From assembly GCA_016874735.1 (NCBI GenBank), contig VGTI01000001.1, forward strand, positions 124,001 through 188,000: 64,000 nt of DNA, written 5' to 3'. The notes beneath the pieces are model-generated. The model was not told the DNA's origin and ran no database searches. It was given only the letters and a program-made list of their open reading frames with translations. This document shows, piece after piece, positions 52,826 to 55,265 of the stretch (position 1 is its first letter; each line of letters begins with the position of its first letter). The position numbers were made by a program, and so were the translations under genes. The stretch comes from Deltaproteobacteria bacterium. GTDB lineage: Bacteria > Bdellovibrionota_B > Oligoflexia > Oligoflexales > CAIYRB01.

Positions 52826-53953
52826 ATGCGTGCAGACCAGGATGGACAGCAGCAAATAACGGACAGCATTCACACGGATCTAGCGTCGCAGCGGCAGGCT
52901 TTTGGACAGAAGCTGAAGAACCTGCGCGAGCAACAGGGGGTCAGTGTTGAAGCCTTGGCCGAGATCACGCGCATCAGCCAGGTTTTTATCGAGGCCCTTG
53001 AGTCCGGAGCGATGGATCGCTTACCCGGGCGCGTCTTTGGGCGCGGTTTCGTTCAGAATATTGCAAAAAATTTTGGCGCCGATCCAGAGCCGTGGCTGAA
53101 GGAATTTGCCATGGTATGGGAGCTCACGGCGCCCCCTTCAGTCTTGAAGGTGCAGATTAAAAATAAACCGACCAAAGATTTTTCTGACCGTCTGCAGCCC
53201 CTAGTGTCCCAGATGGCTAGCCTCGCCAAGCGCGGGGAGATTATCAAAATCGCCCTGCCGGTTGTTACGGTCCTAATCGTTGGGTATTTGGGCATAAGCC
53301 GTTCACTGGTGCAGAACGCGTGGCGGAATCTTAGCTCTCACAGCGTTGCCAGCCATGTTAAGGCCAAGCCGCTAGATTTGAGACCAGTTGACGGGAGTTT
53401 GAACGGCGTCGACATGGCGTCTTCGGCGGGAATGACTGCTGTAACCGGCGGTGTCGTTTCCGTGACGACTTCGGCCAGTGCGATAAAAGACTCTAAAATT
53501 AAAGCGGAAAACATAAATATTGCGGATGCTTCCAAGCATGCTGCGCCGTCGGTGACTAAGGCCAGCGCTGCATCAAGTGCACCAGGCGGAGACGCTCTGA
53601 AACCAAAAATACCGAAGCTACCGATGAGCGAAGCTGCGGCACCGGTAAAGATTGAAGAGAAAGAATCTGCCAAGGGACCGACAAGCAACGTGGAAGGTCA
53701 ACAACAACTGGTCATAGCGGTATCGGAGCCAGTGCGGATTAGGCTGGATGTGGATCAAGGTCCGCCCGTGACTAAAGAACTGCAGCCGGATACCTACAAG
53801 TTTGGATTTAACAAAAAGGCCGACATGCTGATTTATGACGCGGCTGCTGTTCAAATTAGCTTCAACGGCAAAGCGCTTGGTACTTTGGGCAACAAAGGGC
53901 GCGTGCGTCGGCTCAGCTTTCAAAATCAAGTGCCTCAATCTAAGTCAATGTAA
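52826..53953 (+). CDS. RodZ-like HTH membrane protein
   Basis: 375 residues. N-terminal HTH_25 domain (RQAFGQKLKNLREQQGVSVEALAEITRISQVFIEALESG then GRVFGRGFVQNIAKNFGADPE), a membrane helix at ~138-156 (IIKIALPVVTVLIVGYLGI), a long Ala/Ser/Lys-rich linker and a beta C-terminal domain (VAVSEPVRIRLDVD onward). This is the layout of RodZ/DUF4115 proteins that link MreB to cell-wall synthesis; mreB is not in the window. Confidence 0.88.
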   Translation: MRADQDGQQQITDSIHTDLASQRQAFGQKLKNLREQQGVSVEALAEITRISQVFIEALESGAMDRLPGRVFGRGFVQNIAKNFGADPEPWLKEFAMVWELTAPPSVLKVQIKNKPTKDFSDRLQPLVSQMASLAKRGEIIKIALPVVTVLIVGYLGISRSLVQNAWRNLSSHSVASHVKAKPLDLRPVDGSLNGVDMASSAGMTAVTGGVVSVTTSASAIKDSKIKAENINIADASKHAAPSVTKASAASSAPGGDALKPKIPKLPMSEAAAPVKIEEKESAKGPTSNVEGQQQLVIAVSEPVRIRLDVDQGPPVTKELQPDTYKFGFNKKADMLIYDAAAVQISFNGKALGTLGNKGRVRRLSFQNQVPQSKSM

Positions 53954-53976: not shown

Positions 53977-54000
53977 GGGCGTCGGCTTGCCGGCGCCCTT
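53977..54000 (+). terminator. Hairpin after the RodZ-like gene (terminator or 5' stem of the RNA below)
   Basis: GGGCGTCGG (53977-53985), loop CTTG, CCGGCGCCC (53990-53998), 9 pairs with one G-T, followed by TTT. Weak T tract, so a terminator for the gene or the 5' hairpin of the RNA at 54001-54270. Confidence 0.55.
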
Positions 54001-54270
54001 TAGATTTACGGCAGGCCCGCTAAAGTTTCCCGCCCAGGCTCCGAAGATAATCATGAAGGTGCAAACCTCGCTGGGAATAGTGGGATGGGGCTTGAGGGTC
54101 TGACCGACCTGAGCTTCTACGGGGATGGAATGGGTGCGCCAGTACCCTAGGACACGTGCGGGCCTATGATGGGCCAAATTGCCATGAGGGCGATTTAAGA
54201 TCTCCTGACTTACTACCCGCTGAATCCCAACGGCTCAAATTTGAACGGGCCGTTGGGTTTTAGTATTTTT
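54001..54270 (+). ncRNA. Candidate structured non-coding RNA
   Basis: No ORF is convincing here. Stems visible on the plus strand: closing stem AGGCCCGC (54013-54020) / GCGGGCCT (54158-54165), perfect 8 bp across 137 bases; CCCAG (54033-54037) / CTGGG (54071-54075) enclosing AGGT-GCAA-ACCT (54057-54068); GGTC (54097-54100) / GACC (54106-54109) flanked by GCTT/GAGC; AATTGCC (54177-54183) / GGCGATT (54189-54195); and a terminator at 54226-54270. It lacks the RNase P, SRP, tmRNA and tRNA core sequences I know and is not a clear 6S RNA. Its family is unassigned. Confidence 0.5.
54226..54270 (+). terminator. Rho-independent terminator of the candidate RNA
   Basis: CCCAACGGC (54226-54234) pairs with GCCGTTGGG (54249-54257), inner TCAAATTTGA palindrome in the loop, followed by TTTTAGTATTTTT. 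Confidence 0.85.
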
Positions 54271-54308
54271 GGGCCATAAGGAACCCTACGCGGGGTGGAT
54301 GAGGCTAT

Positions 54309-54336
54309 TTGCGTGGCTTTCGCTGATTGTCATAAT
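54309..54336 (+). promoter_or_regulatory. Putative promoter of panC
   Basis: TTGCGT (54309-54314), 16-base spacer, CATAAT (54331-54336). Assigned by eye; it lies after the terminator of the candidate RNA, so panC would be transcribed separately. Confidence 0.35.
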
Positions 54337-54413
54337 CTGGTGGCTGCTGTAGTGATACTAGATTGTTTCAGGCAATTAACGGCTTAATTACGGGACTTCA
54401 ACGAGAACGATCG

Positions 54414-55265
54414 ATGCTACCGTCTACACTTATATCTATCGCAGATTTAAAGGCCCGGCGTGAATCCTGGGCGACCGAAGGTCACAAGGTGGCTTTCGTA
54501 CCCACCATGGGGGCGCTTCATGCAGGCCACCTTAGTTTGGTTCGGGCGGCTAGGGCTCAGGCCGACAGGGTCCTCGTGAGTATATTCGTGAATCCCACTC
54601 AGTTCGCTCCTCATGAGGACCTCTCCAAGTATCCGCGCACGATCAGTGCGGATCTTACATTGCTGGCGAGTGAGGGCGTGGACGCCGTATTTCTACCCAA
54701 TGACACGACCATGTATCCGCAGGGTTTCCAGACTTTTGTACACGGCAAGAGTATGGCGCGGCTGCTCGAGGGGCTTTCGCGACCTCACCACTTCGAGGGA
54801 GTGCTGACCGTCGTTCTTAAGTTGTTCAATCTAGTAAAGCCAGACATCGTATTCCTCGGCAAGAAAGACTACCAGCAATGGCGCTTGATAGAGCAAATGG
54901 TTGAGGATCTCAATTTTGAAACCAAGATCATTGGTTGTGAGACGCTACGCGAACCTGACGGTCTAGCTATGAGTAGTCGCAATCGCTTTTTGTCACAAGA
55001 GGAACGGCCTATCGCCGCCGCGATCCACCGAGGACTTCAGGCGACACGCCAGCTCTTTCATGCAGGCGAAAGATCAGCGACTAAACTGCTTGCTGCATGC
55101 CATGAGGAAATTGCGTCTCATAAGGAACTCCAGCTCGACTATATTGAGATTAGGAAACGCAGTGATCTCAATGTTTTTGAGTCTGATTTGGACGCGCCGG
55201 CTGTTTTGTTGGTGGCGGTAAAACTGGGTGCGACGCGTTTGATTGACAATATTGAACTGGATTAA
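54414..55265 (+). CDS. panC: Pantothenate synthetase
   Basis: Joins pantoate and beta-alanine with ATP. 283 residues from ATG 54414, the usual family length; an in-frame start at 54363 would add 17 residues without family support. Motifs: FVPTMGALHAGHLSLVRAA (HIGH), VFLGKKDYQQWRLIEQMVEDLNF, and MSSRNRFLSQEE (KMSKS-like). panB and panD are not in the window. Confidence 0.95.
   Translation: MLPSTLISIADLKARRESWATEGHKVAFVPTMGALHAGHLSLVRAARAQADRVLVSIFVNPTQFAPHEDLSKYPRTISADLTLLASEGVDAVFLPNDTTMYPQGFQTFVHGKSMARLLEGLSRPHHFEGVLTVVLKLFNLVKPDIVFLGKKDYQQWRLIEQMVEDLNFETKIIGCETLREPDGLAMSSRNRFLSQEERPIAAAIHRGLQATRQLFHAGERSATKLLAACHEEIASHKELQLDYIEIRKRSDLNVFESDLDAPAVLLVAVKLGATRLIDNIELD

Follow-up and report, generated by a model that had tools for sequence, protein, structure and literature searches.

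What occupies the interval between a rodZ-like gene and panC in this 64,000-nt stretch of DNA (the window) from a member of the order Oligoflexales, which NCBI taxonomy places in the Oligoflexia, Bdellovibrionota? The upstream gene (52826-53953, + strand) encodes a RodZ-like protein with an N-terminal HTH_25 domain (Pfam PF13413, E=3.2e-17), and the downstream gene (54417-55265, + strand) encodes PanC, a pantoate-beta-alanine ligase (PF02569, E=3.6e-102). A sequence-only reading had found no convincing gene in 53999-54413, which we confirm, and had proposed an undescribed structured RNA in this place. The comparison with related genomes bears this proposal out: the RNA is conserved, its helices covary, it has no match in Rfam, and no ORF is conserved across it.

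A conserved structured RNA downstream of rodZ

The predicted small RNA extends from 54053 to 54266 on the + strand, with a core at 54079-54217 recognized by two covariance models, R1 (built from 12 sequences) and R2 (built from 30 sequences). Its start (∼54053) is placed by a putative promoter and its end by a predicted intrinsic terminator at 54226-54269 (CCCAACGGC...GCCGUUGGG + UUUUAGUAUUUUU), a hairpin at 54226-54257 followed by a U-rich tail. An independent terminator had been noted here before and is plain in the sequence, and a stricter terminator scan passed over 54226-54257 because its loop is too long; strong terminators also occur at the homologous loci L013, L022, L023, and L042, with clear ones in only part of the homologues. 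The RNA had originally been drawn as 53977-54270, and it does lie within that stretch, but the first part, 53977-53998, is a terminator-like hairpin following rodZ (GGGCGUCGG/CCGGCGCCC then TTTAGATTTA) that falls outside the RNA and has an equivalent at locus L013.

Blastn located the block at ∼54156-54211 in each of the five remaining species of the genus and in several further families of Oligoflexales. Model R1 finds the RNA in 31 of 43 Oligoflexales genomes and R2 in 32 of 43, with exactly one copy in each, and the public contigs with matches belong to Oligoflexales, Oligoflexaceae, and Oligoflexus MAGs. The position is also conserved, as a rodZ-like gene is the upstream neighbor in nearly all homologous loci and the RNA adjoins rodZ in every one whose neighbor is on the contig. 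Downstream lies panC in most genomes and plsB in some genomes of family f11 (L027 and L033). Pattern matches outside the order (Chromatiaceae, Gemmatimonadetes, Marinobacter, and others) occur in about the number expected by chance, and a check for phage origin found no exact motif match among viral contigs. Two candidates, L058 (a pattern match in an Oligoflexia MAG) and L138 (a weak model match in genome G049), were discarded, as both resemble coding DNA.

Covariation in relatives, proposed in the sequence-only reading as a test, proved strong. The alignment used was fitted to the model and so leans towards structure, and its 31 distinct rows include the chance match L058; in it, 91.1% of cells hold standard pairs and 21 of 27 pairs have changed on both sides. 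All five measures exceeded those of every shuffle (0/500), and the signal was lost when the partner was slid by one to three columns. Compensatory changes in two of the helices, P4 and P6, can be read directly in a plain MAFFT alignment and in the raw sequences. Against dinucleotide shuffles, the predicted fold of 54001-54270 is more stable than expected on the + strand (z=-2.61, 1/200) but not on the - strand (z=-0.86). Coding potential was not found: at most 6 of 30 homologues keep the core open in any one frame, and lengths do not hold to multiples of three.

As read from the aligned sequences, the conserved fold is a 5' hairpin (P1) followed by a stem (P2) that encloses P3 and P4, with P4 in turn enclosing P5, P6, and P7. 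P1 (54057-54068, AGGU-GCAA-ACCU) is represented by a hairpin of differing sequence in most homologues and is weak or absent in L027, L033, L040, and L041. P2 (54080-54084/54213-54217) encloses the core and is the weakest helix, with 72% of cells paired, although all 5 of its 5 pairs show changes on both sides. P3 (54087-54117) is formed by 54087-54093/54111-54117 with an inner stem at 54096-54100/54106-54110; it draws on covariation and on the fold of locus L001, and its modeled pairs (3/3 with changes on both sides) are 84% paired. The multiloop is closed by P4, GGGGAU (54121-54126) with AUCUCC (54200-54205), which is 93.9% paired and in which 2 pairs have changed on both sides (GGAGAU/AUCUCC, GAAGAU/GUCUUC). 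Within it, the folds of the window and its relatives place P5 (54132-54147), a hairpin variable in length and sequence and missing in some homologues.

Two hairpins remain. P6 (54161-54175, GGCCU-AUGAU-GGGCC) is 99.4% paired with changes on both sides at 5 of 5 pairs, and its compensatory variants include GGCCC/GGGCC, GGCUC/GAGCC, GGUCC/GGACC, and GGCCA/UGGCC. P7 (54176-54196, AAAUUGCC-AUGAG-GGCGAUUU), which corresponds to a hairpin noticed earlier at 54177-54195, is 98% paired with such changes at 6 of 8 pairs. The hairpins are adjacent, and across the RNA family their loops are mostly ANGAN pentaloops.

Some lineages depart from this pattern. P4 takes a bulged form in family f6 (GGAGCC/GGACUCC), where loci L024, L026, L029, L030, and L032 share a conserved bulged A in the 3' strand, flanked by compensatory changes (GGAGCC/GG-A-CUCC, GGGGCA/UG-A-CUCC). 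In the divergent homologues L041 and L042, P6 carries an ANGGAN hexaloop (AAGGAU, AUGGAU), a known form of CsrA site.

It had also been suggested that an 8-bp stem, 54013-54020/54158-54165, closes the structure and that the RNA may switch between this stem and a local GGCC/GGCC hairpin at 54161-54175. The complementarity exists in the window, but it is not a conserved structural element: all 8 positions pair only here, and the best of any 8-mer reaches 5 to 7 in the 29 other homologues. The 5' strand of this stem lies before the promoter except for its last nucleotide, which is also the opening base of the conserved sigma-28-like -35 element, and the 3' strand serves as the 5' strand of P6. 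A two-fold switch is thus unsupported, and the hairpin cast as the alternative is itself the conserved fold, P6.

A putative sigma-28 promoter

Ahead of the RNA, at 54020-54047 on the + strand, lies a predicted sigma-28 (FliA)-type promoter, CTAAAGTTT-N11-TCCGAAGA, that is conserved in the homologues. The classical sigma-28 consensus is TAAAGTTT-N11-GCCGATAA, which this candidate promoter fits; a sigma-70 promoter scan of the region found none. We rated promoters with a score built from the consensus before counting; for each homologue, the highest-scoring of the 160 positions preceding the core was taken. Scores of at least 9.5 were found in 28 of 30 homologues and of at least 10.5 in 23 of 30; elsewhere in these loci, none of 174,546 positions reached 10.5. 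The distance from promoter to core is near-constant among homologues. The FliA promoter described for Bdellovibrio has the form TTAAG-N16-CCGATA (PMC3627812).

Throughout the genome of the window, the strict sigma-28 motif has 34 matches, compared with 1 for a reversed control. The matches often lie 5 to 90 nt ahead of ORFs resembling secreted proteins or lipoproteins, and the motif also precedes fliS (where it sits inside the end of the fliD-like gene before it) and a response regulator. Of the flagellin genes of this genome, three had their upstream regions read, and these contain no sigma-28 motif. By analogy with Bdellovibrio, FliA may drive more than flagella here.

We note separately that the strict sigma-28-type promoters collected from this genome (loci L062-L091) stand mostly before predicted genes for secreted proteins or lipoproteins, and that long related proteins at L073, L075, L089, and L090, with sigma-28-type promoters ahead of them, share the beginning YPLSYSGRLTLPGGEPMQG. 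This suggests a surface program controlled by FliA, as in Bdellovibrio.

Co-occurrence with flagella

We divided 41 genomes of the order by the presence of flagellin (PF00669), with 33 possessing it and 8 lacking it. The models detect the RNA in 30 of the 33 flagellated genomes vs 0 of the 8 flagellin-less ones (Fisher p=1.7e-6, uncorrected for phylogeny). Two further flagellated genomes, G034 and G007, carry divergent copies at the corresponding position (scored at 24.4 and 22.7 bits by an unfiltered search of 44 kb), and G031 is the only one of the 33 seemingly without the RNA. A different element stands in its place in G031, on the reverse strand of L154 after rodZ (∼1960-2110), with an outer stem GCAAGGAAGGG/CCCUCUUCCUUGC around two hairpins whose loops share CUGCGUAG.

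Five of the flagellin-less genomes (G009, G012, G016, G017, and G018) retain the rodZ-like gene followed by panC, with the RNA absent between them. G037 has no RNA after rodZ, and in G008 and G025 rodZ was not found. Since these 8 genomes are spread over four families (f3, f4, f7, and part of f11), the RNA and flagellin were likely lost several times independently. All 8 encode a FliA homologue above the TIGR02479 cutoff, so sigma-28 seems to serve a non-flagellar purpose in Oligoflexales. With FliA retained in every flagellin-less genome, the presence of the RNA tracks the flagellum rather than the sigma factor. That a folded RNA kept across the order is absent from lineages without flagellin, even though they retain FliA, suggests a role in flagella or in motility itself. 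Outside the order, the flagellated genomes of the class (families f12 and f13) lack the RNA, which makes it a feature of the order and not a general flagellar part; together with G031 they indicate that flagella in general can do without it.

Proposed role and closest known systems

We favor, with a probability of about 0.6, a stand-alone sRNA gene of the FliA regulon that acts in trans in the motile phase. The candidate promoter, the fold, and the terminator come from comparison of homologous loci, and the RNA is presumably expressed. In this model, FliA would transcribe an RNA of ∼210 nt from the promoter at 54020-54047; the transcript would fold into P1 and a multibranched core of P2 and P4 and would stop at the terminator after 54226; and the RNA would most likely act in trans on the motile phase. 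As to the mode of action, the RNA may bind a protein, which it would titrate or recruit; this is slightly favored over antisense pairing, at close to even odds, because conservation centers mainly on a folded platform that bears the two adjacent ANGAN-loop hairpins rather than on a single long unpaired seed. A more specific and more tentative proposal, to which we give about one chance in three, is a novel type of structured RNA that binds a protein or ligand and is dedicated to the flagellated phase of Oligoflexales; made under FliA, it would use its twin ANGAN-loop hairpins to titrate or to act as a scaffold, unlike the flagellar sRNAs that work by base pairing.

The most serious rival is that the RNA is itself a base-pairing flagellar sRNA, like MotR, FliX, or UhpU of E. 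coli or CJnc170 of Campylobacter, whose conserved unpaired CUACGG, GUGCG, and UNACYU pair with flagellar or ribosomal mRNAs. We regard this as quite possible, if short of an even chance. Base pairing is the mode of the known sigma-28-dependent sRNAs (PMC10578931, PMC11187230), and the model leaves some conserved positions unpaired, but most of the conservation falls in helices and hairpin loops, and duplex energies with flagellin starts, a crude test on one target, did not surpass those of shuffles (mean z +0.44). A CsrA-titrating RNA of the CsrB/RsmZ type, made by FliA and releasing motility mRNAs, appears unlikely. It could account for the several GGA-containing loops (AGGAU, AGGAG, and the ANGGAN hexaloops of L041 and L042) and for the 63 occurrences of ANGGA in 30 non-independent homologues, vs 35 expected in shuffles. 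However, this amounts to only ∼2 ANGGA per RNA, many of them in the P4 flank rather than in loops, and in about half of the homologues the P6 and P7 loops are AUGA, AAGA, or ACGA without GGA.

That the RNA precedes panC in most genomes, with strong terminators in only part of them, could instead mark a cis-acting leader (a riboswitch or attenuator) of panC or plsB. In the window, however, a terminator separates the RNA from panC, and elsewhere the downstream gene is not constant, being plsB in L027 and L033; five flagellin-less genomes keep panC without having the RNA, and a sigma-28-type promoter would be odd for a vitamin gene. We consider a leader improbable on these grounds. Least probable is an unannotated housekeeping RNA (6S, RNase P, SRP, or tmRNA) or a c-di-GMP-I RNA like merRNA, despite the size of the RNA and the precedent of highly expressed attack-phase RNAs with sigma-28-type promoters in Bdellovibrio (PMC3627812). 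An Rfam search, also proposed in the sequence-only reading, gave no match at the gathering score of Rfam 15 in the window or in 20 homologous loci, and a scan of the stretch up to E=10 returned a chance match only. ARAGORN reported no tRNA or tmRNA in the window. The c-di-GMP-I model, RF01051, matched nothing in the window, the 20 homologous loci, or the class, where control genomes were equally unmatched. 6S RNA, which had been left open, is excluded: RF00013 has no match here, and the canonical 6S RNA of this genome lies on another contig (G000:C15:60475-60652, 59.4 bits).

In family f6, five genomes (G011, G022, G030, G033, and G036) each have two loci resembling 6S RNA (RF00013), one of them weaker; these may be 6S paralogues.

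By Rfam 15 the RNA constitutes a new family, and we found no description of it in the literature searched, where flagellum-linked RNAs are mainly short or UTR-derived base-pairing sRNAs from enterobacteria and Campylobacter. The alignment is sufficient to define a new Rfam family, and the single copy at a fixed locus provides a clean genetic handle. One parallel comes from Bdellovibrio bacteriovorus, of a related phylum-level lineage in NCBI taxonomy, where FliA governs a broad motile-phase program and the attack phase features intergenic structured sRNAs, 3 of 8 with FliA promoters (PMC3627812). The Oligoflexales RNA resembles these in being intergenic and structured with a FliA-type promoter, but differs from the 445-nt Bdellovibrio merRNA, which contains a c-di-GMP-I riboswitch (PMC3627812), in its lack of a match to RF01051. 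With 6S RNA (RF00013) it shares a similar length and an intergenic position, and it differs in its multibranched fold and the absence of a model match.

Among flagellar systems, the sigma-28-dependent sRNAs UhpU, MotR, FliX, and FlgO of E. coli are UTR-derived and act by base pairing (PMC10578931). The Oligoflexales RNA would share with them FliA-type transcription and a link to flagella, whereas it is intergenic between housekeeping genes, with a predicted promoter of its own and a multibranched fold. Campylobacter flagellar sRNAs are likewise reported to pair with mRNAs (PMC11187230, PMC4626219). CjNC1/CjNC4 and CJnc170 of this genus are FliA-dependent ncRNAs conserved within their clade (PMC4626219, PMC11187230), a parallel to the clade-wide conservation and FliA-type promoter described here. 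CjNC1 and CjNC4 are, however, very short paralogues identical at 37/44 nt (PMC4626219), while the Oligoflexales RNA occurs in one copy of ∼210 nt with strong covariation. RNAs that depend on sigma-28 and serve flagella are thus already known, and it is the multibranched fold kept across an order, the putative promoter of its own, and the loss together with flagella that set this RNA apart.
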